Source of the DNA: Candidatus Omnitrophota bacterium
Lineage (GTDB): Bacteria; Omnitrophota; Gorgyraeia; Zapsychrales; Zapsychraceae
Length of the DNA: 38,879 nt
NCBI GenBank assembly: GCA_015233405.1
Contig: JADFXT010000018.1
Coordinates: 1 to 38,879, forward strand
Direction: 5' to 3'
Shown here: positions 8,047-25,021 of the stretch, one piece after another
Numbering within the stretch: position 1 is the stretch's first letter
How the letters are laid out: every line of letters begins with the position of its first letter
Translations under genes and position numbers: made by a program
The notes under the pieces: generated by a model
The model's database searches: none
What the model saw: only the letters and a program-made list of their open reading frames with translations
Told to the model about the DNA's origin: nothing

Positions 8047-9613
8047 CCGGGATCGAGTGCTTAATCGTAATCCCCTCAGGAGATACGAGAATCTCCTTCA
8101 CAACAAGACGCAACACCTTTTGACGATCCTCGACGCTGAGACTATTAGCCGATTGACGTAATCGCTTCATAAGTTCTTCAATATTTTCCGTAAGTTGCAA
8201 TCGCTGTTGTTGATCAATAAAATTCATTTCCAAAGATTCCAACTCTGTATTTAAAACTGCCTCTCTTTTTTTAAGATCCGGTATCCGTCGACGCAAGTCC
8301 GTTAAAGGAAGCAGCCCTTCCTGATAAGCGTCAAGCAATCGGTCCATCCCGCTCCTGATCCGAATCTGTTCTTTAACAAGAGACTCTTTGCGTACCTGCA
8401 TTGGATTTGATTGTTGCGCCTGTTGAATTCTGCGATCAATCTCGGCTCTTATCACTTCAGGATTTTCCAAAAGCTCGACGATCTTACCCCAGACCAATTC
8501 GTCCAAATAATCTTGTCGAATAGGTCGATTCGAGCAGACTCGATTGACACCCATTCTCCATCGCTCCGAACAGGAACAACGGTAATAATGCAGTTTTTTT
8601 CCTTTCGCATTCGTCCTCGGTCCAGACACCCGATACACTGCATAGCCACATAATGCACACACTAAAACACCTTGCAACAAAGTGTGATATTTTGTATTAC
8701 GTTCAGAAAAATGTTCATTCTTTTTTAGACGTTCTTGCGCAAGATCAAACACTTCAGCCGTAATGATTGCTGGAACTGGAATAGATATCCACTCTTCTTC
8801 AGGACGTTCTCGACAAACAAGACCCCGAGCAAATTTCCCGCGCCACCGACGACGAATTACCCCATGAGTATCCACCGTGTTTGAGCGCCGGCCGAATGCC
8901 GCCTGGCCTTTATACGCCGGGTTTCGAAGTATGTCCCGGATCGCGCTGGGCAACCACTTTCCTTTTCCGCTGCTCGTGGCAATCCCTCGTTTATTTAGCC
9001 ACTTTGCAATCCCCAATATTGGCCGGCCTTCTTGGATGTACGCTTGAAAAATCTGCCGCACTATTTCCGCGCGATCCTCGACGATCTCATACAACGCATT
9101 CGAATGTTCTGCCTTCTTTAAATATCGGTACCCATAAGGCGCGCTGGAAAGAACATTAACTATCCCTAACGTCGCTCGATGTTTCTTCCCTCGGCGACTG
9201 CGCTCCACAATTTGCGCTCTTTCATACTCGGCAATCATCCCTTGAAATTGCAGCAACAACTCTTCTTCTGGCGTCGTCGCATTCGGTGATTTTAGAAAAA
9301 CCACTTCTACACCTTTTCGTTTAAATTCTTCCATTAATAAAACCTGATACGCATATTTCCGGCTTAACCGATCTGGAGAATAAATGAGTATCGTCGTGAT
9401 TTGCCCTTCCGCCGCTAGATCTCTCAAGCGTTCCAATCCAGGCCGGACAAGGTACGCCCCGCTAAATCCCGCATCTCTAAAACACCACTCATCGGGAACA
9501 CTATAGTCGTGCTGTGACGCATATTCTTTTAACGCGCTCACCTGACTCTCAATTGTTTGATCTTCCTTCTGCTGTTCCGAAGATACCCGCGTATAAATGG
9601 CCGCCAATTTCAC
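7934..9613 (-). CDS. Large serine recombinase
   Basis: 559 residues from a GTG at 9613 with GGAGG upstream. The N-terminus AIYTRVSSEQQKEDQTIESQ is the serine-resolvase catalytic domain; its nucleophile is the Ser in TRVSSEQ. LIYSPDRLSRKYAYQ is the second catalytic Arg block. A recombinase domain follows (~160-290), then a zinc ribbon (CALCGYAVYRVSG ... YYRCSC ... CSNRP) and a coiled coil. The natural C-terminus probably lies near SPEGITIKHSIPV at ~520; the last ~30 residues (YQLHTDRQRG...) are an out-of-frame reading of the RecG-like gene fragment. It overlaps a 53-codon ORF by GTGA and follows an HTH-RHH gene, so the three form an operon. It probably mobilised this element. Confidence 0.9.
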   Translation of the reverse strand: MKLAAIYTRVSSEQQKEDQTIESQVSALKEYASQHDYSVPDEWCFRDAGFSGAYLVRPGLERLRDLAAEGQITTILIYSPDRLSRKYAYQVLLMEEFKRKGVEVVFLKSPNATTPEEELLLQFQGMIAEYERAQIVERSRRGKKHRATLGIVNVLSSAPYGYRYLKKAEHSNALYEIVEDRAEIVRQIFQAYIQEGRPILGIAKWLNKRGIATSSGKGKWLPSAIRDILRNPAYKGQAAFGRRSNTVDTHGVIRRRWRGKFARGLVCRERPEEEWISIPVPAIITAEVFDLAQERLKKNEHFSERNTKYHTLLQGVLVCALCGYAVYRVSGPRTNAKGKKLHYYRCSCSERWRMGVNRVCSNRPIRQDYLDELVWGKIVELLENPEVIRAEIDRRIQQAQQSNPMQVRKESLVKEQIRIRSGMDRLLDAYQEGLLPLTDLRRRIPDLKKREAVLNTELESLEMNFIDQQQRLQLTENIEELMKRLRQSANSLSVEDRQKVLRLVVKEILVSPEGITIKHSIPVAQKGTNDSNYQLHTDRQRGRSSQLQQYFWRPGDGFC

Positions 9614-9771
9614 TGTTTCTTTCCTCCGTGAACTAATTCTTTAATATCGTTCTCGCATTCCTGAAAAAATTTCGAAAGCAAAATATCATAGGCCTGTTCC
9701 ATCTTTTGTTTGCCTAACCGGTCAAACTCATACTTAAATTCCACCCGTCTATAATTTTTCTTTTGCGCCAT
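9610..9771 (-). CDS. 53-residue protein coupled to the recombinase
   Basis: The ORF reads MAQKKNYRRVEFKYEFDRLG and ends ENDIKELVHGGKKQ, a charged, probably helical protein. It overlaps the upstream HTH-RHH gene by 23 nt, and its TGA overlaps the recombinase GTG (GTGA). The double overlap supports a real, translationally coupled gene, perhaps a recombination accessory factor. No family recognised. Confidence 0.6.
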   Translation of the reverse strand: MAQKKNYRRVEFKYEFDRLGKQKMEQAYDILLSKFFQECENDIKELVHGGKKQ

Positions 9772-10084
9772 GTCGTTTTAGATAGACACTTATCGCTTCT
9801 GTTATAATCCCACTGATACTTTCTTTTATTTTCTTGCTTAATCTCCGGACTTCTTTGATGATACTCACAGGTAATTTTACAATCACCGCTTCTTTCTCGT
9901 CGGGAATTTGCAGCTCTCTCGGCAACTTCCCCGCCGCTTGCACATAACGATACGCCTGTGGCCGCGATATCCCGTATTCCTCCCCCAAACGTTCGATGGC
10001 CTGACTCGATTCGAATTTCTTGAGCAGCTTCACGGCCCGGTTGAGTCTCTTGACCCGTTCGACTTCTGTGCTTCGTTGTCTCAT
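9749..10084 (-). CDS. HTH plus ribbon-helix-helix DNA-binding regulator
   Basis: 111 residues. Residues ~10-55 (RVKRLNRAVKLLKKFESSQA ... YGISRPQAYRYVQAAG) contain a helix-turn-helix of the Mor/terminase-small-subunit kind. Residues ~68-105 (AVIVKLPVSIIKEVRRLSKK, SGIITEAISVYLKRH) look like a ribbon-helix-helix. It is the first gene of the recombinase operon and could act as its repressor or as a directionality factor. No ribosome-binding site is obvious before the ATG. Confidence 0.7.
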   Translation of the reverse strand: MRQRSTEVERVKRLNRAVKLLKKFESSQAIERLGEEYGISRPQAYRYVQAAGKLPRELQIPDEKEAVIVKLPVSIIKEVRRLSKKIKESISGIITEAISVYLKRHGAKEKL

Positions 10085-10150
10085 AATTCATAATTATATA
10101 TTTTTTTATGAACATAGCAAATAGAATTTTCAGATTCTTCATGCCTTTCT

Positions 10151-10264
10151 TCAGCTCTGCGTTTTACGATTCTCCATCATCTCGTACCGTCTGCGTTCCC
10201 TTTCTTTCCACTCTTCTGGAAAGAGAGCAGCCCGATCAAATTCGAACTTATCTATTGCGATCAT
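10151..10264 (-). CDS. 37-residue ORF coupled to primase remnant
   Basis: MIAIDKFEFDRAALFPEEWK is followed by a run of charged residues (ERERRRYEMMENRK). Its ATG overlaps the TGA of the primase remnant (ATGA). It could be a displaced tail of the same broken gene or a spurious frame. No family recognised. Confidence 0.3.
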   Translation of the reverse strand: MIAIDKFEFDRAALFPEEWKERERRRYEMMENRKTQS

Positions 10265-10995
10265 ACCGCAATATCCAGGGCTTCCGGTAATTCGTTTATA
10301 CTGACTTTGTATCGCCGTTTTCCCGATGGCAAACGCAGCCAAGGCTCATCATTTTCCTCGACGGGGCTATGTCTCACAGCAATCACTTGACCATTACGCG
10401 AGGCTTCATCAACAAAATTTTCAACATCCCGATACGACATTTTTTTGATAGCTGCGAGAAATGCCCATTGATCATGAAAAGGATTCCCGTTCTTATCAAT
10501 AAAGACGCTGTTGCCCTGCGCTGCGGCTTCCTTCTGCAACGGCAGAGCGATCAGATTTCCGAATCCGCCTTTTGGTAAGGTGTCCTGAATGGGATATACG
10601 CCGATTACCTGATATCCGTCTAAATGCTGCTGGATCGCGGTCTCATCAAGCGGCAGGAATTCCTGATTCGGGCATTCGGAACATTTAATGGTGGGTTTAC
10701 GGCAGAGCGAGCGCACCCATTCATGTTTGCAGACGGGGCTATATCCGCGTTTGCCGGTACGGTTGTTCATCCATAGTTTGGCGAAGACATCTTCCCGGCC
10801 ATGGAAATAGCTTTTGAACATCGTTATTTTGTCGACGATAGAATTCGTAGTGGATTGAATTGGCTTAGATATGGTGGGAACTGATAAGGCTTGGAGTTTT
10901 TGAATACACTGCGACTTAATGTTTGTCAAAAGGTTGATCTGCTCGTCAAGACGTTTAACGCGCAACTCAAGTTCTTTTCTATCGTTGAGGTTCAA
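10261..10995 (-). pseudogene. Internally deleted TOTE-type archaeo-eukaryotic primase
   Basis: 244 codons. After a coiled coil (~1-45) the sequence MFKSYFHGREDVFAKLW ... KRGYSPVCKHEWV ... KPTIKCSECPNQEFLPL is the N-terminal zinc-containing part of the primase domain of TOTE conflict systems. QDTLPKGGFGNLIALPLQKE, then NPFHDQWAFL, is the later conserved block. In complete members roughly 100 or more residues lie between the 'GVYP' strand and 'QDTLPKGG', including the catalytic acidic motif near 'AVDFD'. Here GVYP runs directly into IQDTLPKGG, so the catalytic centre is missing, as are the helicase and nuclease parts expected downstream. The join is in frame. It follows the membrane-protein gene of the biosynthetic operon by 27 nt but is functionally unrelated. 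Confidence 0.75.
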
Positions 10996-11022
10996 GATTA
11001 CTCCTAAAATGAAAAATTTTCC

Positions 11023-11412
11023 TCAAAGGGCTTCACTGGCAATTTTTTTCTTGGCAACAATAAATATAACAAGGAAAATTAAATCAAAAAAAGCAAAATA
11101 AACCCACATCAGCGGTATCGCGGCCTGCGCCCAATGGAACAAAACCACTCCAGAATAAGAGGCCTTAAAAAAAATGCCATAAAGAATCAAATTGCGATTA
11201 GCTGCCGGATCCCGTGCTATGTTGAAAAACATTGTCGCAAAAATGATTAATAACAGCGCCGGGAAATGAATGTATCCCACATGATTAGGCGGCGTAATAT
11301 TTGCCATGCTCAATAACTGTTGCGGAAAGAGTAAAAATAACATCCCCAAGATCCCGTCATAGAGGCCCGCCACAATGAAGAAAGGTTTAATCCATTTTGG
11401 CATGACCATCAC
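11023..11412 (-). CDS. Small four-helix membrane protein
   Basis: 129 residues with four hydrophobic segments (FFIVAGLYDGILGMLFLLF, FPALLLIIFATMFFN, LYGIFFKASYSGVVLF, FAFFDLIFLVIFIV). Similar short integral membrane proteins with a GLYDG start and a DPAANRNLILYG motif occur widely, without assigned function as far as I know. It begins 27 nt after the radical SAM gene and is the last gene in this strand run, so it probably belongs to the biosynthetic operon and could serve in transport or as a membrane anchor. Confidence 0.7.
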   Translation of the reverse strand: MMVMPKWIKPFFIVAGLYDGILGMLFLLFPQQLLSMANITPPNHVGYIHFPALLLIIFATMFFNIARDPAANRNLILYGIFFKASYSGVVLFHWAQAAIPLMWVYFAFFDLIFLVIFIVAKKKIASEAL

Positions 11413-11439
11413 GTTCCCCCTTTCGTCAACTCGCCATTT

Positions 11440-12762
11440 CTATTTCAACTTTTCTTCTATCTGTTTATACATTTCTGTTTGGTTCCCACGACGCCAATTC
11501 GCATAAATCCGTTGAGACAAATTTTTATTGAGTGGCAGCGTCCTTAAATTATTTTCTTTCGATAATTTTACGATTTCAGAAGAATATTTTTCGCACAGCC
11601 AGCATTCTCCCGGCGGCTGAAAATAACTTCTCATTCTGTTATAAATCTCATCGAAGTTCTCTTGCGCGATATTCCCGAAGGAAATATTTAGGAATTCGCA
11701 AGGCTGTACATCGCCTTTTGCGTTGATATAAAATCGGTCCGTTCCTCCGGCAGTGCACCCAAAAACTGCAGCGTCTTCTTCAATAATCTGAGCCGATATA
11801 GAAGGATAGTCTTTGTATTTCACGTCTTGATTATACTTGCGCACCGATTCCTTGACTTTTCCTAAATCCTCGACGGTAAATACGCCCGCTCCTGATTCCA
11901 ACCAGGCGCCTGCTGATTTAGGCTTTATAATCTGAATCAAGCAAGCGTTGAATTCTTTTGCCCTATTCATTAATTTTTCAAAGTTACCGTTATAAAAATC
12001 ATCGCGCATAAGACATGAATTAAATGCTACCGGAACATCGATGCTGTGACATAAACGAATTCCCTCGACCAATGTATCCCATGCCTTGTCCGATTTCATA
12101 AAAGCATTCAGCTTTTGCGGCTCGTGACTATGTAAGGAAAACATGACAGCTGTAAGCCCCAATTGTTTAAGTTCACGCAAGCGGTCAAGCGTCATTCCGT
12201 CACCAGTAGAATTAACCCAAATTTCCGCGTCCTTGCCGATAACGGCACATAATTTTTTCAAACGATCATAAACTAAGAAAGGCTCCCCGCCTTCAATGTT
12301 AAAAAATGCGACGCCCCTTTCTTTCAATCGCTGCGCAGCTGAAATGATCAAGTCAATATCAACGTCCCCGCCTAAATCATTTCTTTGGTAGCAATGCTTA
12401 CACTTGAATCGACAAGCTGAAGTCACAGAAATTAAAACTGTTGTGCAGGGAAGTTTTTCGTCAAAAACAAAAAATTTTCGACATGCTGTAAAAAATGCTT
12501 TCGAAGGAAATCCTGGAATGTAAAGTCCTGGGCGTACGGCGCTGCCAATTTTTACGAACTTGTTGTGATAAACCTTTGAGAGAAAATAAAGCAACCGCTT
12601 TAAAAACAAGATGTATCGACGAACGGAAATTTTGCCTTTAAACATCTCCGGCAAGTAATAAAGCAAAAGGCACAACTTCATTCTCGTTGTGAATACAACT
12701 TTTCTAAGGCCCGTAACATTTTCTATCTTCATCATAGGGAATGCCGGTGTTTTCGGTACCAT
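11440..12762 (-). CDS. Radical SAM enzyme with SPASM domain
   Basis: 440 residues. The radical SAM cluster motif SACRFKCKHCYQRND (C-x3-C-x2-C) is at about 117-131, followed by FFNIEGGEPFLVYD (the GGEP SAM-binding motif). The C-terminal part has SPASM/twitch cysteines: GCTAGGTDRFYINAKGDVQP, CEFLNISFGNI, then GECWLCEKY. SPASM enzymes use extra Fe-S clusters and modify peptides, alcohols or other substrates. About 100 residues precede the barrel (KISVRRYILFLKRLLYFLSK), basic and hydrophobic, possibly membrane-associated. It overlaps the SDR gene by 31 nt. A role late in assembling the lipid-like product is likely, but the chemistry cannot be read from sequence. Confidence 0.85.
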   Translation of the reverse strand: MVPKTPAFPMMKIENVTGLRKVVFTTRMKLCLLLYYLPEMFKGKISVRRYILFLKRLLYFLSKVYHNKFVKIGSAVRPGLYIPGFPSKAFFTACRKFFVFDEKLPCTTVLISVTSACRFKCKHCYQRNDLGGDVDIDLIISAAQRLKERGVAFFNIEGGEPFLVYDRLKKLCAVIGKDAEIWVNSTGDGMTLDRLRELKQLGLTAVMFSLHSHEPQKLNAFMKSDKAWDTLVEGIRLCHSIDVPVAFNSCLMRDDFYNGNFEKLMNRAKEFNACLIQIIKPKSAGAWLESGAGVFTVEDLGKVKESVRKYNQDVKYKDYPSISAQIIEEDAAVFGCTAGGTDRFYINAKGDVQPCEFLNISFGNIAQENFDEIYNRMRSYFQPPGECWLCEKYSSEIVKLSKENNLRTLPLNKNLSQRIYANWRRGNQTEMYKQIEEKLK

Positions 12763-13766
12763 TCAACTGTGTTTTTAATTCCTTCCTCCAAAGTGCAGTG
12801 GCTTTCAAAACCGAGTACCTGTTTTGCTTTCACCGTCGAGTATTCGATATTATCGTAAAACATATTGACTCTGCCTCTCGTCATAAGCGGCGGATTTTTA
12901 ACGCCAAATACTGTATAAAATAACTCCATAAAAAAACCAACAGGATATGCCATCCATCGGGGCAGCAATGTCGGCTTGGGAAGTCCAGCATATTTACAAA
13001 ACTCAGATAAAGTTTCGTCCATATAATCGCATTGACTGCCGCCGATAATAAAACGATTCACTCCTTTAAGCCGTTTGCAAAAAGCCGAGTAATGCGCTTG
13101 GGCCACGTCTTTGACGTAAACGACATGAAATTTGTTTCTTCTTGATCCAGGCGACAAATGAACCCCTTGTTCGATCGATCTTAAATATTGAATGAAAATC
13201 GTATCATATCCGTTTTCGCCATAAACCCAAACTGGTTCTAAGATCGTAAGATTCATTTTCTCTCTTAAGGCAAAGTCTGTTGCTTTCTGAACAGCCAGGC
13301 ATTTTGTATCTCGATAATGATTGAGCTGGCAGGGAAAAATGCCGTCGAGGAAATAGCGATAGTGTGAATGATATGGGAACTCTTCATCCTTGATGTCTAT
13401 AGAATTTTCTTCTCCATAAACAGAGTTTGTTCCTGTCATAATCACATCCGTAATGCCATTGGCCTGGCAGGCGCGAAGCACATTCAATGTTCCCTCCACA
13501 TTCACTTGATAAAATTTTTTGTACTCTCCCCAGTCTTTGACGTAAGCCGCCGTGTGAATAACGAAATCATGGCCATAAAACGCCTCCATCAATGTTTTTG
13601 GATCACAAATATCGCCGTATTTATATTCGACGGGAATGTCTTTAATTGCGTCTAAATTGCTGGCCTTGCGCACCAGGCACGTCACCTGGTTTCCTTTCTC
13701 ATAAAAGAGACGAACGATGTGGCTGCCAATAAATCCATTGCCTCCGGTGATAATAACTTTACCCAT
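12732..13766 (-). CDS. Extended SDR / NAD(P)-dependent epimerase-reductase (CerR- or 3-beta-HSD-like)
   Basis: 344 residues. The Rossmann motif TGGNGFIGSH is at about 6-15, DFVIHTAAYV is the second conserved strand, TGTNSVYGE carries the active-site Ser/Thr region, and NHYRDTKCLA gives the catalytic Tyr-x3-Lys at about 151-155. The C-terminal half resembles 3-beta-hydroxysteroid dehydrogenase/NDUFA9-like SDRs, the group that includes the bacterial ceramide reductase CerR and the hopanoid-associated HpnA. With an alpha-oxoamine synthase and ACP in the same operon, reduction of a 3-keto group on the amino-ketone product is the simplest role. It overlaps the KS gene by 8 nt and the radical SAM gene by 31 nt. 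Confidence 0.85.
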   Translation of the reverse strand: MGKVIITGGNGFIGSHIVRLFYEKGNQVTCLVRKASNLDAIKDIPVEYKYGDICDPKTLMEAFYGHDFVIHTAAYVKDWGEYKKFYQVNVEGTLNVLRACQANGITDVIMTGTNSVYGEENSIDIKDEEFPYHSHYRYFLDGIFPCQLNHYRDTKCLAVQKATDFALREKMNLTILEPVWVYGENGYDTIFIQYLRSIEQGVHLSPGSRRNKFHVVYVKDVAQAHYSAFCKRLKGVNRFIIGGSQCDYMDETLSEFCKYAGLPKPTLLPRWMAYPVGFFMELFYTVFGVKNPPLMTRGRVNMFYDNIEYSTVKAKQVLGFESHCTLEEGIKNTVEWYRKHRHSL

Positions 13767-15036
13767 TGCACTTCCTCAGGGCGATTCCGGCATTGTGACC
13801 GCCGAATCCATACGACGTTGATATCGCAATATTGATATCAGCGTCCATCGAATTTTCCGGCAAATTAAGATTTTCTCGAGGAGCAGGAACGCGATTGCTA
13901 TGTATTTTTGATTCCCTTATTGCTAATGCTGTCACAGCTGTTTCAAGAGCTCCACTTGCGCCGAGTGTATGGCCGAGAATTCCCTTTGTCGAGTTGATAT
14001 AGGGCTGATTTTCCCTGGAGCCGAAAATCTCTATGATTGCTTCTGCTTCAATCGCATCATTGGTCATGGTGCCGCTGCCATGAGCATTTAGATAATCAAT
14101 GTGTCCATGCGCTTTAAATTTTTGAAGCAGCCGTTTAATTTGAACGCCAGAAAGATCCATTTGAACAATGTTATAGGCATCACTATTGCTTTGGAAATCA
14201 ATAATTTCAGCATAAATGTTTGCCCCTCGTCGGATCGCATGTTCATATTCTTCCAACACAAGAACGCAAGCGGCTCCTTGAGAAAACAAAAATCCCGTGC
14301 TTGTTTTGGAGAACGGCTGTGGAACACCGTCGGGTGATTGAGAAAGCACACCTAAAACGTCAAAGCCTCTCATCACTCCGCCAAACGCGTCAGATAAACA
14401 TTCCACTCCACCCGTCAGCATAACTTTTTCAGATCCGCTTTGAATCCTATGAAAAGCATCGCCAATAGCCAATATTCCCGACGCACAAGCTGCATTCACT
14501 GTATAGCTTGCTCCATGCAATCCATAACTAATCGAAATCCAACTCGACACGGAATTTGGCATGAGCATGGGAACTATCATGCGGTTGAAATGGATTTTTG
14601 AACGATCGAAGTTTTGTGGAATCTCCTCTTTCGTTTTTATAACATGCCCCAAATATGAATGAAATCCAGCCTCAAGACTACTGATACCAATTCCCATGAT
14701 GACGCCGCAATAATCAAGATTTTCAACAACAAACTCTTTTTGAGCTTTATGAATTTTGAATCTGGCATCGTCGAGGGCTAAGGATGCAGCGGCAAGCGCG
14801 AGCTTATCTCCATTCTGTGTAACTTTATCGTAATACTTAGGAAAACCATATGTGTTTAAATCGATCTCAGGGCAAGGGCTGTAATAACGCGATTTGAATG
14901 AGTATCCACCGCGCTCGAATTGAGCAGGAATTTCACGGATGCATCGACGTTGATTGATAACACCCTCAAAAAAATCTTCCCTTCCCGTTCCCGTCGAGGT
15001 CACGGGACCGATTCCGGTTATAACAACACGCCGCAT
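13759..15036 (-). CDS. FabF-like beta-ketoacyl synthase
   Basis: 425 residues, full length for FabF-type enzymes. The nucleophile is in NAACASGILAIG at about 182, the first His in NAHGSGTMTND at about 318, and Lys and His in STKGILGHTLGASGA at about 348-353, so the Cys-His-His centre is intact. NAHGTGT appears as NAHGSGT. It catalyses decarboxylative Claisen condensation of a malonyl-ACP unit with an acyl chain. The start codon shares one base with the stop of the ThiL-like gene (TAATG). Only one KS and no chain-length factor, acyltransferase or dehydratase is in the operon, so it probably makes a special acyl chain with help from general fatty-acid enzymes. Confidence 0.9.
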   Translation of the reverse strand: MRRVVITGIGPVTSTGTGREDFFEGVINQRRCIREIPAQFERGGYSFKSRYYSPCPEIDLNTYGFPKYYDKVTQNGDKLALAAASLALDDARFKIHKAQKEFVVENLDYCGVIMGIGISSLEAGFHSYLGHVIKTKEEIPQNFDRSKIHFNRMIVPMLMPNSVSSWISISYGLHGASYTVNAACASGILAIGDAFHRIQSGSEKVMLTGGVECLSDAFGGVMRGFDVLGVLSQSPDGVPQPFSKTSTGFLFSQGAACVLVLEEYEHAIRRGANIYAEIIDFQSNSDAYNIVQMDLSGVQIKRLLQKFKAHGHIDYLNAHGSGTMTNDAIEAEAIIEIFGSRENQPYINSTKGILGHTLGASGALETAVTALAIRESKIHSNRVPAPRENLNLPENSMDADINIAISTSYGFGGHNAGIALRKCNG

Positions 15037-16052
15037 TAGGATTGCTCTCCCAAATAACGAATAAGGTGGTCCAAATATTCTTTTCGATTAATAAAATCGC
15101 GTGCACGGATGGTTATGCGGCTCAAATCTACGATTTTGTTTCGACACGATAGAGTTCTCCCAGAATCAACAATATTTCCGATCTTGTAAAAGGTTAATCT
15201 TTGCTGTTTTGCCGTCGATAACAATTCCGGTTCGCGTTCCGGCTTTATGGTAAACAATAATTCGTATTCACCTGCCTCTCCTAAAAATAATAATTCCTTG
15301 GGCAAAGACACAAGTGAAGCTCCAACGGCGCCAATCTCGACGTAAGGTAAGTCGCTTATTTCATATCCAACTCCGTTTATTTCCGCGATGCTATTAAGGC
15401 CGTTAAACACACCGTCACTTGTATCTATACAACAATTTGCGCAGTTCGATATCAAAGCTGCCTCTCTAAGACGTAAATGAAAACGATTTTTGATGAATGG
15501 GGATGAAACTTTCCATCGAGGATCCGGCGAAAAAAAAGAAAGCGCCGCTTCGAGATTCCCTGAACCAATCTTTCCAGAAATATAAATCGAATCGCCAGCA
15601 ACAGCACCCTTTCGATTCAGGAGCCGTTCCCTTGGTTGACCAATAACAGCGGCGGTGTAGCGCCAGTTCTCAGCTTTACCGAAGTCGCCTCCGATAAAAA
15701 CTATCCCTGACTTTTTCAAGACGTCGGACACGCCATTCGCAAATGTTTTCACAAAATCATCATCCCACGACTTGTCGACGACCATTGCGTGACCATAAAA
15801 TAGCGGGACACCGCCGCAAGCCGAAATATCACTCATTCCTCCCGCCGCAACATTCCAGCCTAATGAATATGCATCATTCTCCCGGAACATGTCTTCGGAA
15901 GAAAACTCATCCATGGTGAAAAGCATACGCTGGCCTGAAAAAGACAGAACTTCAGCGTCGGATTCAAAACATTTACTAAGCCGCAGTTTGCTTTCCGCAA
16001 ACACACTTGAAATCATTTCAATCAATCTTTTTTCGTCATTGATCTGGCCCAT
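15036..16052 (-). CDS. ThiL-like AIR-synthase-family kinase paralogue
   Basis: 338 residues, the length of thiamine-monophosphate kinase. The fold is recognisable from GWNVAAGGMSDISACGGVP, then FIGGDFGKAENWRYTAAVIG (ThiL has GGDT...), then GSGNLEAAL, CIDTSDGVFNGL (ThiL: DISDGL) and GEAGEYELLFTI (ThiL: GEDYELLFT). The N-terminal block that in ThiL reads roughly 'TDMLVEGVHF' is TMDEFSSEDMF here, and GEDYE has become GEAGEYE. The nucleotide-binding residues look kept while the substrate end has diverged. It lies in a lipid-like biosynthetic operon rather than with thiamine genes. I infer an ATP-dependent phosphorylation of a different substrate. It overlaps the LCB-kinase gene by 17 nt and the KS gene by 1 nt. 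Confidence 0.8.
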   Translation of the reverse strand: MGQINDEKRLIEMISSVFAESKLRLSKCFESDAEVLSFSGQRMLFTMDEFSSEDMFRENDAYSLGWNVAAGGMSDISACGGVPLFYGHAMVVDKSWDDDFVKTFANGVSDVLKKSGIVFIGGDFGKAENWRYTAAVIGQPRERLLNRKGAVAGDSIYISGKIGSGNLEAALSFFSPDPRWKVSSPFIKNRFHLRLREAALISNCANCCIDTSDGVFNGLNSIAEINGVGYEISDLPYVEIGAVGASLVSLPKELLFLGEAGEYELLFTIKPEREPELLSTAKQQRLTFYKIGNIVDSGRTLSCRNKIVDLSRITIRARDFINRKEYLDHLIRYLGEQS

Positions 16053-16983
16053 TGATCAACTCCAATTCATCCCTCGTCATTTCAATGCGACAAGGCAATA
16101 ATCCTTGAGGGTCGCCGTCAAATTCAACTTCCGTTTTGCGGTCGTTATCAAAAATTTCGATGCTTTTAGCGTATTCAAGGCTGATTGTGTCACTGTTTAA
16201 GATCGGTTTACCGCTATAAAGGACATTTAGGCAATAGGGGACATTAATCCAGCGGACATTTCTTATTGTCAAAACATAAAATTTCCCGTCGCCCGACGCA
16301 AGCGCATGAGCAACCTTTATGCCGGAGGCGACATAAAATGTTTTTCCGACGGATAAATTGACGATTCCATAGAGTTGAGTTGCTTTGCCGTCCAGCGATA
16401 TTGAAAAAGCTCTTGGCCGATGATGCATAAAGGCTTTCATTAATGCCAAAAGCGTTCCTGCAAAGTCGCCCGCAATCTTCCGAGCCCCCCAATTAGCATA
16501 GCGGGCTACCGACGCGCCCAACCCAACGTTGACACAACAGGAAAAATAGCGAGTAACGGCCGTTGATTTATTTTCGTTTTCCATTAGCGAGATTTTGCCA
16601 ACCTGAATCCTTGTTGTCTTGCCTGCGAAAAGAGCACTTAGCGATTTTCGTATATCATGGTACGGGACATTATAGCTTTTGCAAAAATCTGGACTCGTTC
16701 CTGTGTAAATAATGCCGAGTTTTGCGCTCGACGATCTATTGCCATTCCCGTCGTAAAATCCATTCAAGACCTTGTTGATTGTTCCATCTCCGCCGACAGC
16801 AACCACAACATCATAGGCTGATAGATTTGCCCTTTTCGATAGTTCGTATGCGTCATTTAAAGAATCGGTCACGCCATAGTCATATGAGATTTTCTTCTCA
16901 TGAAGCAAATTCTTGATGGCAACAATTGAATGTTTGCTCTTTCCGTAACGCGATCCCGGATTAAAAATAAAAAAATATTTCAT
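16036..16983 (-). CDS. Diacylglycerol/sphingoid long-chain-base kinase family protein
   Basis: 315 residues. The DAGK catalytic domain is clear: FFIFNPGSRYGKSKH at the N-terminus, VVVAVGGDGTINKVLNGF with the GGDGT ATP-binding loop at about 60, and LGIIYTGTSPDFCKSYNVP where the family usually has GTGNDFAR. The C-terminal beta domain with EVEFDGDPQG matches the 'DGE' lipid-kinase C-terminus. The family phosphorylates diacylglycerol, sphingosine or ceramide; in Caulobacter an LCB5-type member (CpgB) is a ceramide kinase. Next to an alpha-oxoamine synthase and ACP, phosphorylation of a long-chain amino alcohol is the favoured role. The start overlaps the upstream gene by 4 nt. Confidence 0.85.
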   Translation of the reverse strand: MKYFFIFNPGSRYGKSKHSIVAIKNLLHEKKISYDYGVTDSLNDAYELSKRANLSAYDVVVAVGGDGTINKVLNGFYDGNGNRSSSAKLGIIYTGTSPDFCKSYNVPYHDIRKSLSALFAGKTTRIQVGKISLMENENKSTAVTRYFSCCVNVGLGASVARYANWGARKIAGDFAGTLLALMKAFMHHRPRAFSISLDGKATQLYGIVNLSVGKTFYVASGIKVAHALASGDGKFYVLTIRNVRWINVPYCLNVLYSGKPILNSDTISLEYAKSIEIFDNDRKTEVEFDGDPQGLLPCRIEMTRDELELINGPDQ

Positions 16984-18167
16984 GATAGATTTAAGTCCTT
17001 TGCGATCTTTTTAAAGATCTCCGTGGCCTTTAGTACACTTCCCCTCGACAAATTTGCTCCCGCAATGAGCCGTATCTTATTTTCATGGGGTGGCACTGAC
17101 GGCGGCACAAACGGCGTTGCCAAAATACGATGGCTGTGAATGGCTTTTGCCAGTCGCGCACATTCTTCTAGATCCCTTACCAAAATCGACGTGATGGGCG
17201 CCTTGCCTTCAGTTAAACAAAATCCATTATCCATTAAGCCATTGCTTATCATTTGTTTATATTCCCACATTCTGCCGCTGATCTCAGAGAACTCTTTGTC
17301 TATGATGTCAAGCACGGCTTCTATCCCTGCCAACGTGCAAGGCGTTAACGCCGTCGAATAAATAAGCCCTGGACAAGTGTACTTTAAGTAATCAATCAGC
17401 CGTTTGTTCCCGCTAATAAATCCCCCCGCATTGGCAAAAGCCTTGCCTAACGATGCCGTATAAACACCGGTAAAATTTTGGACACATTTTTCTTCTAAAA
17501 TTCCTCGCCCTGTTTTTCCTAAAACGCCAATGCCATGTGAGTCATCAATGACCGGCAAGGCATCATATTCCGCGCATAGACTCCCTATTTCATCAAATGG
17601 CGCAATCGTTCCTTCCGTCGAGAATACCGACTCTGTCACGACGAACACTTGTCGATAATCAGAAGCCATTTGCAACAATTTTTTAAGATGGCCGGGATTA
17701 TTATGCAAGAACGGTTTGATTTTTGCGCCAGACAATCGTACTCCCTGTATGAGAGAAGCATGCGCATAATGATCAATGAGAATCAAGTCCCCGGGCTGAG
17801 CCAGAGAAACGAATAAAGCACAATTCGCCTGATATCCCGACGGAAAAATGACAGAATCTTCAAGGCCAACAAATTCGGAAAGTCGGCTTTCAAGTCTTTT
17901 AAAAAGCAGCATGGATCCTGTGGCTATCGGCGTGCCGCACATTGAGGCGCCATATTCTTTCGCCGCTTCGACGATAGCATGAATAACTCTTTTGTCGGCA
18001 GCGAGGCCAAGATAGTTGTTAGATGCTAAATTTATGAATTCCTTGCCGTCGACAATAATCGGATCGTCTAAACTGGATCCAATTCCACAATAGTAAGGAT
18101 TGAAATCATATTTAACCGTTAAACTTTTATCAACTTCCAAGCTGGAGTAAAAATTGATTGATCTCAT
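16980..18167 (-). CDS. Alpha-oxoamine synthase (SPT/KBL/BioF family)
   Basis: 395 residues, typical family length. Visible motifs are NLASNNYLGLA, CGTPIATGSMLLFKRLE, DHYAHASLIQGVRLSGA (the His that stacks on PLP), VIDDSHGIGVLGKTGRG (Asp for the pyridine N) and ASLGKAFANAGGFISG (the PLP Lys at about 241). SGAKIKPFLHNNPGHLKKLL is closer to SPT and KBL than to BioF. These enzymes condense an amino acid with an acyl thioester, losing CO2, to give an alpha-amino ketone; SPT uses serine. The adjacent ACP gene overlaps by 4 nt, as in bacterial SPT-ACP pairs. The PATP-like loop of SPT is FVPPSVPP here, so the amino acid used is uncertain. Confidence 0.9.
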   Translation of the reverse strand: MRSINFYSSLEVDKSLTVKYDFNPYYCGIGSSLDDPIIVDGKEFINLASNNYLGLAADKRVIHAIVEAAKEYGASMCGTPIATGSMLLFKRLESRLSEFVGLEDSVIFPSGYQANCALFVSLAQPGDLILIDHYAHASLIQGVRLSGAKIKPFLHNNPGHLKKLLQMASDYRQVFVVTESVFSTEGTIAPFDEIGSLCAEYDALPVIDDSHGIGVLGKTGRGILEEKCVQNFTGVYTASLGKAFANAGGFISGNKRLIDYLKYTCPGLIYSTALTPCTLAGIEAVLDIIDKEFSEISGRMWEYKQMISNGLMDNGFCLTEGKAPITSILVRDLEECARLAKAIHSHRILATPFVPPSVPPHENKIRLIAGANLSRGSVLKATEIFKKIAKDLNLS

Positions 18168-18412
18168 GAAAATGACCTAAGGTTCGGGGAGTATTGTTTT
18201 AAAGCACTGATGATGTCGGCGACGCTGTTTATGCCTTTATAATGATGGTCCTCAATGGATACGCCGAATTCATCTTCAAGCGCATTCACAATAATGACCA
18301 TGCCAAAAGAATCCAATCCAAGTCCCTCTCGCAAATTCGTATGAACTGTAACTTCCGATTTCTCTTCCAAATTTTCCTCAATAATTTTTATAACTCTTTG
18401 CTCTAAATTCAC
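18164..18412 (-). CDS. Acyl carrier protein
   Basis: 82 residues. The phosphopantetheine site is GLGLDSFGMVIIVNALEDEF, with the modified Ser in DSF at about 36, and the usual acidic helix II follows. It is a dedicated ACP placed between the old-yellow-enzyme gene (1-nt gap) and the alpha-oxoamine synthase (4-nt overlap). It probably delivers the acyl chain made by the KS to the synthase. No phosphopantetheinyl transferase is in the window, so a genomic one must serve it. Confidence 0.9.
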   Translation of the reverse strand: MNLEQRVIKIIEENLEEKSEVTVHTNLREGLGLDSFGMVIIVNALEDEFGVSIEDHHYKGINSVADIISALKQYSPNLRSFS

Positions 18413-18413
18413 A

Positions 18414-19643
18414 TCATTCTCCTAATTTATAATGCCCGAAGTAACATCTGGTTGAACGGCCGCTGTCGCACATGACAGCACACATATTGCAATTTAAGCA
18501 TTTCGCCTGATACGATTCATTCATCTTGATTTTATGGATGAGATCTGGTTCACAGATAAACGGACGGCAAATACTAACGATATCGGTGTTTTGATTTTCA
18601 ATCGCGGCAGTCATATCTTCCATTTTTCTGAAACCGCCGACACAAACAATCGGTATTTTTGTAAAGCGCTTAGCCATTTGGGCCCAATGGAGATTGTACG
18701 CAGGGGTGAATTTCTTGAACCGGTGTTTTGCAACGGGATAGATGATTCTTTTGGTTAAAAAGCGGCGGAAAATGTTGCGAGTTCTATAGCGCGGATTGAG
18801 CTCAAGGATCGTATCAAGCGGCACACTTTCGCCTCGGAAAATATTCAAGGCGCAATCCATCGTGCCATAACTGATTTCAATGGCATCGACTCGCATTTCG
18901 TCGAGAAAACGTACCAACTGAACGAAATGGTTTTGAGTGAAGGTTGTCGCATAATCGTCGCTGGCACTGATCTTTATCAATATTGGAAAATCTTGCCCGC
19001 ATTTTGCTCTGATCTCTCTGATGATAAGCTTTAGAAATAATGTCCCGATACGCGACTGTCTGTCGATTCCGAACTCATCTTTCCGGTCATTGATGCTGGG
19101 CAAAAGAAATTGATGGATGAGATAGCCGTGAGCCGCATGCAACTGTACGCCATCGAAACCTGATTCTTGGCATCGCTTTGCCGCCTCGGCAAAACGTCCT
19201 ATGAGGATCTTCACTTCATCGGCACTCATTTGCGTCGGAGCACTTTGGAAATACGGCGATTTTTTTTGAGATACGCCTTTAACGACTCCGCCAACAGCTT
19301 GAGGCATTGTCTGGCGGCCGCTGTGAGCGATTTGCATAAAAATTTTACTTCCGTTTTCATGGACCTTATGGCAGACGCGTTTGTAATAAGAGATTTTGGC
19401 ATCCTCATCAATGCCAGCTTGGCCCGGATGCATCGCCCTCCCGCAAGAGGAGATATATGCAAAACCTGTGATGATCGCTCCGATGTTATTTTTGGATAGG
19501 TCGCGATATAAATTGAAATATTTCTCCGTCGGGAATCCTTGTTGATCGCACATTCCCTCAAAGGTCGCGGATCTTACGATCCTGTTTTCTAAATTAACAT
19601 TGCCGATTTTAATTGGTTCGAAAAGCTGCATATTATCGTTCAT
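18414..19643 (-). CDS. Old-yellow-enzyme-family flavin reductase with Fe-S cysteines
   Basis: 409 residues. An FMN-binding TIM barrel begins LFEPIKIGNVNLENRIVRSA and continues FMQIAHSGRQT, GFDGVQLHAAHGYLIHQF, PSINDRKDEFG and PIVCVGGFR. The C-terminus has CLNCNMCAVMC and a further Cys, like the Fe-S-binding loop of 2,4-dienoyl-CoA reductase and BaiC-type reductases, which receive electrons through a 4Fe-4S cluster. The FAD/NADPH domain those enzymes carry after this point is absent, so an outside electron donor is needed. It could reduce an enoyl or dienone bond in the product. It overlaps the UbiA gene by 4 nt and precedes the ACP gene by 1 nt. Confidence 0.85.
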   Translation of the reverse strand: MNDNMQLFEPIKIGNVNLENRIVRSATFEGMCDQQGFPTEKYFNLYRDLSKNNIGAIITGFAYISSCGRAMHPGQAGIDEDAKISYYKRVCHKVHENGSKIFMQIAHSGRQTMPQAVGGVVKGVSQKKSPYFQSAPTQMSADEVKILIGRFAEAAKRCQESGFDGVQLHAAHGYLIHQFLLPSINDRKDEFGIDRQSRIGTLFLKLIIREIRAKCGQDFPILIKISASDDYATTFTQNHFVQLVRFLDEMRVDAIEISYGTMDCALNIFRGESVPLDTILELNPRYRTRNIFRRFLTKRIIYPVAKHRFKKFTPAYNLHWAQMAKRFTKIPIVCVGGFRKMEDMTAAIENQNTDIVSICRPFICEPDLIHKIKMNESYQAKCLNCNMCAVMCDSGRSTRCYFGHYKLGE

Positions 19644-20635
19644 GATTTTGCGTTTGGATGTAATTCGAACAAAAATTCAACAAACATATAAGACATAATG
19701 AACAACCATAAAGCCAGGTCAGGATTAAAAAACGCAATGATTGTCGCTTCGCCGCACACACAAGCGCGAAAGTTTGTTTTAAGCGATGCATATGTCGCGG
19801 TTCCCGTCGGGCTACGATAATAAAGCAAGCCTGTCCATACTTGCATAAACATAGTTAGACAGCCTAACATGATAAATGTACTGTTTATTTTGACCGCCCA
19901 CATGTCCAGCGCTTTAAAAATGAAAAAAGCTATCGTCGGCAAAAAGGTGGCAAAAATGGCCATCGAACGAGCATTATCTAAACCATATTTCACGACGAGA
20001 GTATTCTTGCCAGCCGCCTTATCGCCTTCGTAATCCTTAAAATAGGTATAGAACGTCATTAATCCATTGATGATCCATATAAGTATTAAAGCCGCGAGAC
20101 GATGCGGCGCTAAAAAAGATGCTTGCGTCGGTCCACAGGCATAAAAACCAAAAAAAGTTGCCATGGTAATCATTAAACCAAAAACGATATTGCCGAAAAT
20201 ACCATGCCCCTTTGCGAACTCATAAATGACATTAAGGACCGCTCCAGCAATAATAAAAATTATGGCGATGGGCTGAAGATAAAACCAAGTCATGACTATT
20301 GACGTCGAAAGTATCGCAAGCGAAACAAATAAGGCTTTATTGGCGTCGAGTTCGCCCGTCACCATTGGGCGATCAGGTGCATTGATTCTATCTTCTTTAA
20401 GACCCAAATAATCGTTTATGATTTGGTTAACTCCCCACCCTAAAAACAGCATGATGAGGATGACAATTTTTTTCTCTTGGCTCGGAAGAACTTCAATCGT
20501 TCTTTCCACATGATGGTTGGCCAACAATTCATAATAGGCAACGCCAATCCACCCAGCTATTCCCGTTACAAAGGAATAATACAAACGCATGGACTTAATG
20601 TATTCCTTAAGGAACTTCATCATCTTAATCTCCAA
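19640..20635 (-). CDS. UbiA-family membrane prenyltransferase
   Basis: 331 residues with about nine hydrophobic segments. The first Asp-rich motif is NQIINDYLGLKEDRINAPDR at about 70-90 (N-D-x-x-D type), and the second is YFKDYEGDKAAGKNTL at about 198-213 (D-x-x-x-D). Both bind Mg-prenyl diphosphate in this family. Members join isoprenoid chains to aromatic rings, to glycerol phosphates (archaeal DGGGP synthase) or to other acceptors. Nothing here shows the acceptor. It overlaps the marR stop by 11 nt and the OYE gene by 4 nt, so a prenyl chain may be part of the operon product, or the prenylated compound may be a second one made in parallel. Confidence 0.85.
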   Translation of the reverse strand: MEIKMMKFLKEYIKSMRLYYSFVTGIAGWIGVAYYELLANHHVERTIEVLPSQEKKIVILIMLFLGWGVNQIINDYLGLKEDRINAPDRPMVTGELDANKALFVSLAILSTSIVMTWFYLQPIAIIFIIAGAVLNVIYEFAKGHGIFGNIVFGLMITMATFFGFYACGPTQASFLAPHRLAALILIWIINGLMTFYTYFKDYEGDKAAGKNTLVVKYGLDNARSMAIFATFLPTIAFFIFKALDMWAVKINSTFIMLGCLTMFMQVWTGLLYYRSPTGTATYASLKTNFRACVCGEATIIAFFNPDLALWLFIMSYMFVEFLFELHPNAKS

Positions 20636-21140
20636 TTTTCAGATTAACGTTCTCCGAATTCTTCTTTCCAGAATCAACAAATTGCATCCAGTCCGACAAC
20701 ATTTCAGACAATATTCGTTTCTTCTCTTTGTCCAAGCCTTCGGTTAAACTTACCAATTTCTTCGTGTACCCAGGCCACACTTCATCTAATAACTTTGATC
20801 CTTTTACCGTAATATGAATTGTTTTAAAACGTTTATCCGTGGCAATGCTCCCCCGGCGAATCAATCGATCGCGTTGAAGCTTAGCCAATACACGCGTCAG
20901 GTTGGACGTGGACACCATGAGACGTTGACTTAAATCAATCTGACTCATTCCACTTTCTCCACCCTGATGTTTTACAATCATCAACGTGTTCATTTTTGCG
21001 GGTGTCAGCTTATAGGTCTGCAAATAAATTGATATCTCATCGATAATTCGATTAGACAAGATGACCAACCGGTAAACAATCTCCTCATGATACTTCCCTC
21101 TTCCCACCTTTACGCCATACGGTTCAAGATAGTCCATCAT
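20625..21140 (-). CDS. MarR-family transcriptional regulator
   Basis: 171 residues. The winged helix is MSQIDLSQRLMVSTSNLTRV followed by LAKLQRDRLIRRGSIATDKR and FKTIHITVKG, the standard MarR DNA-binding helix and wing. Flanking helices at both ends would form the dimer. It is the first intact gene of the biosynthetic run, with AAAAGGA before the ATG, and it overlaps ubiA by 11 nt. MarR proteins bind 2-fold symmetric sites; two near-identical palindromes lie over the promoter at 21488-21542. Autoregulation of the whole operon with release by a small molecule is likely. Confidence 0.9.
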   Translation of the reverse strand: MMDYLEPYGVKVGRGKYHEEIVYRLVILSNRIIDEISIYLQTYKLTPAKMNTLMIVKHQGGESGMSQIDLSQRLMVSTSNLTRVLAKLQRDRLIRRGSIATDKRFKTIHITVKGSKLLDEVWPGYTKKLVSLTEGLDKEKKRILSEMLSDWMQFVDSGKKNSENVNLKIGD

Positions 21141-21178: not shown

Positions 21179-21495
21179 TTAGCGCGCCATGTGTGAAATC
21201 GCTGCTCTTAATCCCTCGACAACAGCGGCAATTTTTTCAATATTAACGATGTAAACATTTGCGTAATAAACTCCGAGGCCTTTTTCAAATGATCATAATT
21301 AATATAATTGCGAGGCCCAATGTCTTCACTTAAATATCGGATGATGTGATTAACATTTGCCGGTGAGATGGTCGCGGATTGATTGAATCGAGGCGGAACT
21401 GATGGCCACCAACCATAGGTTGATGCGGCGATAAAAGCAACGCCTATTACGAAATATCGGGTGAATCGGATTATCTTTAAAAAAATAGTTGACAT
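21179..21495 (-). pseudogene. Gutted M28-family peptidase pseudogene
   Basis: From the ATG at 21495 (GGGAGAGG upstream) the frame gives a signal anchor (FLKIIRFTRYFVIGVAFIAA) and then ISPANVNHIIRYLSEDIGPR and NYINYDHLKKA, the start of M28 zinc aminopeptidases. That frame stops at 21208. In another frame, from about 21258 to the TAA at 21179, the same strand reads VYIVNIEKIAAVVEGLRAAI and SHMAR, which looks like the last helix of an M28 peptidase. The roughly 200-residue metal-binding core is missing and the join is out of frame. The remnant occupies the leader of the marR operon, 38 nt before marR. Confidence 0.65.
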
Positions 21496-21542
21496 GTCAA
21501 CCTCTCCCGTAAAACATATCATGCAAAAGTTGTCATGTCAAC
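21488..21542 (-). promoter_or_regulatory. Promoter with two palindromic MarR-type operators
   Basis: On the minus strand TTGACA (21541-21536) and TATGTT (21518-21513) are separated by 17 nt, with TG two bases before the -10 (extended -10). Operator 1, GTTGTCATGTCAAC at 21529-21542, covers the -35. Operator 2, GTTGACATGTCAAC at 21488-21501, is a perfect 14-bp palindrome just after the predicted start of transcription and covers the pseudogene ATG. The centres are 41 bp apart, about four helical turns, so dimers would lie on the same face. Binding by the downstream MarR protein is inferred. Confidence 0.75.
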
Positions 21543-21937: not shown

Positions 21938-22924
21938 TTATAAATGCAGCCCATTAATTTGATCTTCCAAATTTTTAATTTCTTTTAAAATATCCTCAAA
22001 ACTCGGATATTCCCCGAATATCATTTGTTCCATCGCGGCATAATCGTCCCGCAAGACTTTTTCAACATAATGCGGCGGCATTAACTTCATCGATCCCGGT
22101 CGAGCCAACTCATACCGAGCCCACGTACTCGGGAAAAATCGTTGGTTAAATTCAATGACCTTTCCCAAAAGATGGACATCTTTAAGCGCGTTTTCTTTAA
22201 TTGCTGATCTACTCATAAAAGCTAAATCATAATAATGTCTCGAGTATCTCAATGGCGGCATCTTATCGTCGGGACGAAAAGCTTCTTGGTGTAATATCGT
22301 CGCCTTTTCCCAGAACGTTCGCTCAGCTTTAATCGCAACCACCTGCGCTTCTGAAACCTTAAACTGTTCGGGAAACACTTCCGCGGCATAGGGAACAACT
22401 TTATATTCTCCGTGCGGAATCCAATCGGAACGCGGACCGATTTCAAGCCTGACTTCCGAACGCAAATATTTGTCTTTGAAAACTTCCGGGTATTTTATAA
22501 GAATCACTCCTCCGTGTTCTTCATCGATCGAAACTTTGCAAAGCTCTCCCGTCAGATCTTCTACCCAGCCTTTAACAAAATCCCTGATGTAAGTTTGTGA
22601 CTTTTGAATTAAATCTTCGTTAAATAACTTTTGTTGTTTTCTGGAGCGATCGGCATTTGGATCTTCATCGGTCAGTAAAGTCCAATCCAGGACTAAATCA
22701 ATATCCTCGGAAAAACGATCAATGAGATGAAATGCTTTTGATAAAGACGTTCCTCCTTTAAAAAGAATCTTGCTGGACAACTCAGGATGCTCGAACAAAT
22801 GCAATAAAGTCCAGCAGACCCAGAAATCTTTCTCCATGATCGCTTCGGACATGCCTCTTTTAGCCGACGCTTCCTGAAATAATTCCCTACGCTTATCATG
22901 AGAAAGGGCGGCGATGTTATCCAC
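21938..22924 (-). CDS. AbiEii-like nucleotidyltransferase toxin (second pair)
   Basis: 328 residues. KGGTSLSKAFHLIDRFSEDI continues into DLVLDW, giving the GG-(S/T) and D-x-D nucleotidyltransferase motif at about 56-80. Further blocks are EVRLEIGPRSDW and SRHYYDLAFM, equivalent to the 'RDFYDL' block. It is longer than the AbiEii-like protein at 1210-1953 and belongs to a different branch. It overlaps the upstream DUF6088-like gene by 8 nt, giving a typical antitoxin-toxin order. Motifs look intact, so activity is plausible. Confidence 0.85.
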   Translation of the reverse strand: MDNIAALSHDKRRELFQEASAKRGMSEAIMEKDFWVCWTLLHLFEHPELSSKILFKGGTSLSKAFHLIDRFSEDIDLVLDWTLLTDEDPNADRSRKQQKLFNEDLIQKSQTYIRDFVKGWVEDLTGELCKVSIDEEHGGVILIKYPEVFKDKYLRSEVRLEIGPRSDWIPHGEYKVVPYAAEVFPEQFKVSEAQVVAIKAERTFWEKATILHQEAFRPDDKMPPLRYSRHYYDLAFMSRSAIKENALKDVHLLGKVIEFNQRFFPSTWARYELARPGSMKLMPPHYVEKVLRDDYAAMEQMIFGEYPSFEDILKEIKNLEDQINGLHL

Positions 22925-23531: not shown

Positions 23532-23542
23532 ATGAAGAAATT

Positions 23543-23581
23543 AAACCATATTGTCACAAAAAATGCAAACATTTTGTGACA
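23543..23581 (-). promoter_or_regulatory. Operator palindrome TGTCACAAAA-N10-TTTTGTGACA with promoter
   Basis: A perfect 10-bp inverted repeat (23552-23561 and 23572-23581) with a 10-nt spacer lies 20 nt before the antitoxin start. On the minus strand a weak -35 (TTTGCA) lies in its spacer region, and TTTAAT about 18 nt further on is the candidate -10, so binding would block RNA polymerase. Assigning it to the antitoxin is inference from position. Confidence 0.6.
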
Positions 23582-23647
23582 GATAATTCATCGCTTCTAA
23601 CCCTCTAAATGATGTGACATTCCCCAATTCAAATCTTCCCTAGTCGC

Positions 23648-23854: not shown

Positions 23855-23860
23855 GGTTTT

Positions 23861-24490: not shown

Positions 24491-24569
24491 AAACTTTTCA
24501 TCCCATATTTTAGGAAATTTATAAACACTATATTACTGGCTTCGCGTTGTGACAAGCTCAAGTTGTCCT

Positions 24570-24800: not shown

Positions 24801-24812
24801 AAAGGACCTGCC

Positions 24813-25011: not shown

Positions 25012-25021
25012 GGTATCTTGT

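Follow-up and report, generated by a model that had tools for sequence, protein, structure and literature searches.

Gene Content and Organization of the Operon

The window, a stretch of 38,879 nucleotides, is an entire contig (JADFXT010000018.1) of the 2.38-Mb, 84% complete assembly of a Candidatus Omnitrophota bacterium (GCA_015233405.1). Its list of open reading frames (ORFs) holds eleven genes between positions 11023 and 21140, all on the minus strand, which form the operon discussed here. The first gene encodes a MarR-family regulator (20625..21140; Pfam MarR_2, 4.8e-10), followed by a UbiA-family membrane prenyltransferase (19640..20635; Pfam UbiA, 1.1e-26), an old-yellow-enzyme (OYE) family reductase (18414..19643; Oxidored_FMN, 5.6e-60), an acyl carrier protein (ACP; 18164..18412; PP-binding, 3.2e-11) and a pyridoxal phosphate (PLP)-dependent alpha-oxoamine synthase (AOS; 16980..18167), identified by Pfam Aminotran_1_2, its tree position and its PDB match. 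Next come a lipid kinase of the DAGK/YegS/long-chain base (LCB) kinase family (16036..16983; DAGK_cat, 3.1e-23, with YegS_C), a ThiL-like kinase of the AIRS family (15036..16052; TIGR01379), a FabF-type ketoacyl synthase (KS; 13759..15036; ketoacyl-synt, 5.2e-32), an extended short-chain dehydrogenase/reductase (SDR) that is a putative ketoreductase (12732..13766; Pfam Epimerase/3Beta_HSD), a radical SAM (rSAM) protein (11440..12762; Radical_SAM, 3.1e-17; SPASM, 1.7e-07) and, as the last gene, a small helical membrane protein of 129 amino acids (11023..11412), recognized by its predicted fold and its pairing with the rSAM gene.

Profile searches with Pfam and NCBIfam back the family assignments from MarR through rSAM, and together with the ORF list they bear out the initial annotation, which had described eleven one-strand genes of these families with nine of ten tight junctions. 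Nine junctions are indeed overlapping or 1 nt apart: MarR overlaps UbiA, or leaves a gap of 1 nt if UbiA starts at its first ATG, and overlaps follow between UbiA and OYE (4 nt), ACP and AOS (4 nt), AOS and lipid kinase (4 nt), lipid kinase and ThiL-like kinase (17 nt), ThiL-like kinase and KS (1 nt), KS and SDR (8 nt), and SDR and rSAM (31 nt, or 4 nt with the start used by orthologues). OYE and ACP are 1 nt apart, and the tenth, looser junction is a 27-nt gap between rSAM and the small protein.

A Five-Gene Core Shared by Two Phyla

The full set from MarR to rSAM recurs in identical order in three further Omnitrophota metagenome-assembled genomes (MAGs; all carriers known by name are MAGs), namely G018 (L026/L041), L042 and G005 (L028/L043), with identities of 57-77%, except for the more divergent MarR (28-38%); the small-protein gene was not found in the G005 cluster. 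MAGs of the Ignavibacteria class carry a second version in the fixed order ThiL-like kinase, SDR, rSAM, UbiA, OYE, AOS and lipid kinase (Ignavibacteria bacterium RIFOXYC2_FULL_35_21, L044; L098; L101; L099 and L100 are broken by contig ends), and KS and ACP homologues were not found in these clusters. A third, reduced version without KS, ACP, ThiL-like kinase and OYE occurs in two Omnitrophota genomes: G099 (L048) has MarR, AOS, lipid kinase, a single ORF of 787 codons (L048 8651-11014) that fuses SDR with rSAM, UbiA and the small protein, while G087 has AOS, lipid kinase, SDR and UbiA on one contig (L097) and rSAM with the small protein on another (L047).

Comparison of gene content across the three cluster types therefore defines an invariant core of AOS, lipid kinase, SDR, UbiA and rSAM, the genes common to every complete version. 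KS, ACP, MarR and the pair of ThiL-like kinase and OYE, which are co-present or co-absent in the clusters examined, are accessories; MarR holds the same first position in L026, L042, L028 and L048. This distribution does not support two proposals of the initial annotation. One made a special acyl chain built by KS central to the pathway, although neither KS nor ACP occurs in the Ignavibacteria-class clusters or the reduced Omnitrophota ones; the other treated UbiA and rSAM as add-ons, although both are in every complete cluster version. Its expectation that the gene set would be conserved together beyond this genome is confirmed in other Omnitrophota MAGs and in the Ignavibacteria class, and this co-occurrence in two phyla is far beyond chance. 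Trees of AOS, UbiA, lipid kinase and SDR agree in their deep split into full Omnitrophota clusters, Ignavibacteria-class clusters and reduced Omnitrophota clusters, a pattern with which the remaining genes are consistent; the core has therefore travelled together.

Carriage is patchy. The survey covered the window's class and the Ignavibacteria class, in which about 6 of 384 and about 5 of 294 genomes, respectively, have a close rSAM orthologue, together with one scan of genome contigs using two peptide patterns only, which returned five loci, including a distant archaeal rSAM. Viral contigs scanned with AOS gave no match. Plasmid AOS matches (Bacteroides, Parabacteroides, Aureispira and a bioF operon) were rejected, as the cluster is not present there, and more distant rSAM matches with E-values of ~1e-40 to 1e-69 (L050-L054, L086-L096, L108) do not belong to the same cluster. 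On a conjugative plasmid of Bacteroides, a divergent AOS stands alone beside a TetR regulator (L022 9938-11898), with a MAC/perforin gene nearby. In G046, a C-terminal rSAM fragment (71% identical) and the small-protein gene (together L049 2395-3404) lie on a 10-kb contig otherwise without cluster genes, and are probably a decayed cluster remnant. In the Ignavibacteria class, a membrane protein is encoded after the lipid kinase (L044 15698-16693, L098 12262-13275, L101 3629-4648), with a weak PDZ match in L044; further downstream, L044 encodes a large protein whose beginning is similar, as well as a response-regulator-like protein.

The genomic context differs from carrier to carrier, as it would for a cassette that moves horizontally. 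In the window, the MarR gene is closely preceded by a truncated M28 peptidase N-terminus (21208..21522, minus strand; 33% identical to the M28 peptidase of L052, E-value 5e-10), and in G018 an intact M28 gene plus a hydrolase sit between MarR and UbiA, so that the fragment is likely the remnant of an accessory gene. The flanks (7465-11000 and 21938-38879) form a defence and mobile region with a serine recombinase, fragments of a RecG-like protein and a TOTE primase, AbiEi/AbiEii, Fic, IS110 and a type I restriction system that includes an additional ATPase.

The Oxoamine Synthase Forms a Clade of Its Own

Among NCBIfam models, bioF scores highest by bits on the AOS (304.7, cut-off 426.45), followed by KBL (285/460), with CqsA at 208/428; the serine palmitoyltransferase (SPT) models give 270/640, 231/500 and 170/670 bits, hence none reaches its cut-off, and distant cluster members present a similar picture. 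The best PDB match is SPT (3a2b, 1.7e-60), and cysteate fatty acyltransferase (CFAT, 28eh) is also among the PDB matches. In a tree whose SPT references are from Bacteroidota only and which is without alpha-proteobacterial SPT, CqsA and 5-aminolevulinate synthase, the cluster AOS form their own clade (support 100/99) apart from BioF, KBL and Bacteroidota SPT. The PLP lysine K242, the stacking H136, D208/H211 (within D208-D209-S-H211 in the window) and the carboxylate-binding R366 are invariant in 10 orthologues.

The possibility that the AOS is the BioF of biotin synthesis, or that the genes were assembled by chance, was rejected: bioF is the top model by bits, but its cut-off is missed, the AOS does not join the BioF clade of Omnitrophota and E. 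coli, into which the one other AOS of the genome falls, and no bio genes were seen in any cluster. The phylogeny that the initial annotation had proposed as a check thus does not place the synthase within BioF. G451 has an SPT-clade AOS in addition to its cluster AOS.

The Nearest Solved Relative of UbiA Is an Archaeal Ether-Lipid Enzyme

In two profile searches, the best PDB match of the cluster UbiA is the archaeal digeranylgeranylglyceryl phosphate synthase (DGGGPS; 6m31), at 4.9e-17 with an 11-row profile, and the best named NCBIfam models in three cluster members are those for geranylgeranylglyceryl phosphate (GGGP) geranylgeranyltransferase. The DGGGPS cut-offs are not reached (PRK12882, 69.6/296 bits; PRK12883, 66.2/353 bits), and UbiA/MenA models score far below the DGGGPS models. 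The cluster UbiA form their own clade, with a branch relative to DGGGPS that is unsettled in the tree. Motif 1 in the UbiA family is normally NDxxDxxxD. In the cluster it reads NDxLGxxxD, with Gly in place of the middle Asp in 11 of 11 orthologues, whereas motif 2 (KDxxGD) is kept. This is the single exception to the earlier claim that all main catalytic motifs are intact, which holds for all others, mostly invariant across orthologues. According to Pfam the genome has four UbiA genes, so that the cluster UbiA is not the only one, and a single gene elsewhere, resembling geranylgeranyl/farnesyl diphosphate synthases, could be a source of the prenyl donor.

A reading of the operon as quinone or other aromatic prenylation with a misread synthase draws on the UbiA family itself and on a UbiE-like methyltransferase in separate Omnitrophota clusters (described below), but it is very improbable given the low UbiA/MenA scores, the lack of aromatic-precursor genes and the place of lipid kinase and AOS in the core; a quinone pathway was rejected.

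Remaining Core and Accessory Proteins

The lipid kinase is nearest to DgkB/YegS (DgkB, 4.4e-29), with a weaker PDB match to sphingosine kinase (2.9e-07), and contains the motifs GGDGT, invariant in orthologues, and DGD. The SDR is of the HpnA/OleD/3beta-HSD type by NCBIfam, also in distant members, and its motifs G8xxG11xxG14 and Y151xxxK155 are intact. The rSAM protein, for which orthologues support a start at 12735, combines an N-terminal extension of ~100 amino acids with CxxxCxxC and a SPASM/twitch-like C-terminus, whose Cys 336, 355 and 390 are invariant in an alignment of eight orthologues; by analogy with MoaA, these three residues suggest one auxiliary cluster. Its best NCBIfam model is NirJ2 (81.7/500 bits) and its best PDB match SkfB (7.1e-14), tetraether synthase (Tes) is not among the NCBIfam matches listed, and no named rSAM family fits; the structure model (predicted local distance difference test score of 57) is too weak to use. 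The small protein is predicted to consist mainly of four helices, without a Pfam or NCBIfam match or a PDB relative of the predicted fold; in Omnitrophota its gene remains paired with rSAM also in genomes that have other cluster genes elsewhere.

Among the accessories, the ACP (motif G-L-D-S) is found in full Omnitrophota clusters only (L026, L028, L042), where it lies directly upstream of AOS; a dedicated ACP beside the synthase, a trait of sphingolipid pathways, is thus confined to this version. KS is likewise restricted to full Omnitrophota clusters; it scores 271.9 bits against a fabF cut-off of 493.75 and has intact C184, H319 and H356, with conservation judged from three close sequences only. 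The ThiL-like kinase retains the Mg/ATP residues D32, D48, D75, GGD123, DxSDG and GEYEL as invariant, but reaches 131.9 bits with TIGR01379, below the cut-off of 184.15, while a separate true ThiL of the genome (L137) scores 288.8 bits, so that the ThiL-like kinase probably acts on another substrate. The OYE has H169/H172, no NADH domain and five invariant C-terminal Cys (382/385/388/392/400) in an iron-sulfur-like motif.

A Candidate Pathway for a Phosphorylated Amino-Lipid

The reading that we favour, tentatively and at somewhat short of an even chance, is that the operon is dedicated to the synthesis of a phosphorylated amino-lipid not yet described. AOS would build a 3-keto long-chain base from an acyl thioester and serine or a comparable amino acid; in the full Omnitrophota version, the acyl chain would come from the cluster's own ACP, with the FabF-like KS loading or extending it. 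The SDR would then reduce the 3-keto group, and the lipid kinase would phosphorylate the 1-hydroxyl. UbiA, modelled on DGGGPS acting on geranylgeranylglyceryl phosphate, may attach a prenyl chain to the remaining hydroxyl or amine, with prenyl diphosphate made by the cell as donor. A further radical modification by rSAM would be adjacent to the SDR step, as the SDR-rSAM fusion in L048 suggests neighbouring steps, and the small membrane protein may assist in Omnitrophota. In an optional branch, the ThiL-like kinase could perform a second phosphorylation, from phosphate to diphosphate, and OYE could reduce an enone or dienoyl intermediate. Every substrate and product in this scheme is one that we infer, as are the sphingoid nature of the product, the prenyl transfer and the assignment of the kinases.

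Support comes from the five-gene core kept across two phyla with congruent clades. The best PDB match of AOS to SPT and the retained PLP and carboxylate residues are consistent with the proposed first step, and the position of ACP directly upstream of AOS parallels the acpR-spt operons of Rhodobacteria (PMC9386255). At the level of sequence, UbiA nearest to DGGGPS, a kinase family that includes sphingosine kinase, and a ThiL-like protein additional to true ThiL also appear to fit. Several points weigh on the other side. No family reaches the SPT, LCB-kinase or DGGGPS equivalog cut-off, the amino-acid substrate of AOS (serine, glycine or cysteate) cannot be read from its sequence, and UbiA is without the middle Asp of motif 1, so that it may use another donor or mechanism. 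The operon has neither a headgroup gene nor an acyltransferase resembling ceramide synthase, and the patchy distribution and MarR control would fit a specialised metabolite as well.

That explanation, in which AOS acts like CqsA and yields an alpha-aminoketone or hydroxyketone, to be reduced, phosphorylated, prenylated and radical-modified into a diffusible signal or antibiotic rather than a structural lipid, is unlikely but the strongest of the alternatives. Besides the few carriers and the regulator, the varying contexts, the defence- and recombinase-rich contig of the window and the match to the CqsA-type model are in line with it; however, that match falls well below the cut-off, lipid-kinase and DGGGPS-like families stay together in the core, and no nonribosomal peptide synthetase or polyketide synthase modules, transporter or resistance gene are conserved with the cluster.

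A quite improbable variant has the lipid kinase and then the ThiL-like kinase convert a lipid alcohol into the diphosphate that serves as UbiA's donor, with OYE setting double bonds. Phytol kinases feed homogentisate phytyltransferase in a comparable manner. The conversion of phosphate to diphosphate is the chemistry of ThiL, the altered UbiA motif is compatible with an unusual donor, and ThiL-like kinase and OYE co-vary; yet UbiA is retained without either in the reduced clusters L048 and L097.

Relation to Known Lipid Pathways

The de novo ceramide pathway of Caulobacter and other Rhodobacteria comprises aasR/cerR/acpR/spt/cerS, with a ceramide kinase in Caulobacter (PMC11324152), and in Rhodobacteria spt is as a rule immediately preceded by the ACP gene (PMC9386255). 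The operon shares with these systems a PLP-dependent AOS, a private ACP upstream of it, an NAD(P)-type ketoreductase and a lipid kinase (CC_1160 in the known pathway), but its AOS lies outside the Bacteroidota SPT clade and below the SPT models, its SDR is of a different type (HpnA/OleD/3beta-HSD), it contains no acyl-ACP synthetase or CerS, and it adds UbiA, rSAM, ThiL-like kinase, OYE and KS. No CerS acyltransferase or CerR orthologue lies within the operon; a genome-wide search for them was not made. With the sulfonolipid (capnine) pathway and the CFAT of Alistipes it has in common the logic of AOS and ketoreductase, as well as the CFAT match, whereas a cysteate-forming gene is lacking in the operon and UbiA, rSAM and the kinases stand outside that pathway as described. 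An ordinary sphingolipid or sulfonolipid pathway with extra genes, for which the parallels of AOS, ACP, SDR and kinase to SPT/CFAT, AcpR, CerR and the Caulobacter ceramide kinase speak (PMC9386255, PMC11324152, PMC9304779), is also quite improbable, since UbiA and rSAM would be unexplained, CerS is missing from the operon, the SPT cut-offs are far off, and the AOS clade is apart from Bacteroidota SPT with full support, with both AOS kinds in G451.

Archaeal ether-lipid synthesis is approached through UbiA, whose expected acceptor would be a phosphorylated lipid backbone that retains a free hydroxyl, but the missed NCBIfam cut-offs, the Gly in motif 1 and the operon's lack of a glycerol-1-phosphate or GGGP synthase gene set it apart. 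The ThiL-like kinase resembles ThiL in its AIRS family and ATP/Mg residues, and differs in its score, in the true ThiL elsewhere in the genome and in its linkage with OYE. Judged by its sequences, the operon resembles sphingolipid and archaeal ether-lipid synthesis without qualifying as a member of either.

Separate, type-2 clusters of Omnitrophota (L050 6738-14200, L051, L052 and, in part, L053) encode an alpha/beta hydrolase (ABH), a polyprenyl synthase, a UbiE-like methyltransferase, a DGGGPS-like UbiA, three rSAMs, a lipoprotein and an M28 peptidase; the UbiA, the prenyl synthase and the Tes-like rSAM are in some, not all, of them. This one rSAM is tetraether-synthase-like, with an HMPTM zinc ribbon and archaeal tetraether synthase as its best PDB match (7tol, 6e-37), and the type-2 cluster, itself undescribed, is possibly one for isoprenoid ether-lipid synthesis. 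Homologous genes connect it to the AOS clusters, namely rSAM (31%), UbiA, ABH (63% for L042 and 43% for L026 of G018) and M28 (52% for L026), whereas no AOS, SDR or lipid kinase was seen there, and the prenyl synthase, methyltransferase and Tes-like rSAM are specific to type 2. The ABH and M28 genes common to relatives of the AOS cluster and to type-2 clusters point, as a hint, to membrane-lipid chemistry.

Significance

The suggestion that this is an operon of conserved make-up, undescribed so far and built on a sphingoid-like core, is supported by its recurrence in other genera and another phylum, and no description of such a cluster was found in the open-access papers searched (subscription papers and preprints were outside the search). 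All enzyme families are known, while their assembly is new and the product probably is too: sphingolipid-like enzymes are combined with an archaeal-lipid-like prenyltransferase and an rSAM, so that a lipid not yet described is the probable outcome. A more specific and more doubtful proposal is a hybrid membrane lipid of Omnitrophota and the Ignavibacteria class, in which a sphingoid-type amino-alcohol backbone would receive an isoprenoid via the DGGGPS-like UbiA and be modified by rSAM, bridging bacterial sphingolipid and archaeal ether-lipid chemistry. If the amino-lipid reading holds, the cluster rSAM would represent a new radical SAM family, and the conserved core provides a short, testable list of enzymes that includes it, next to an unexplained ThiL-like kinase. 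Bacteria of two phyla would then put sphingolipid-type and archaeal-type steps on one molecule, which would be relevant to orphan lipids from anoxic waters and sediments and to the divide between bacterial and archaeal lipid chemistry.

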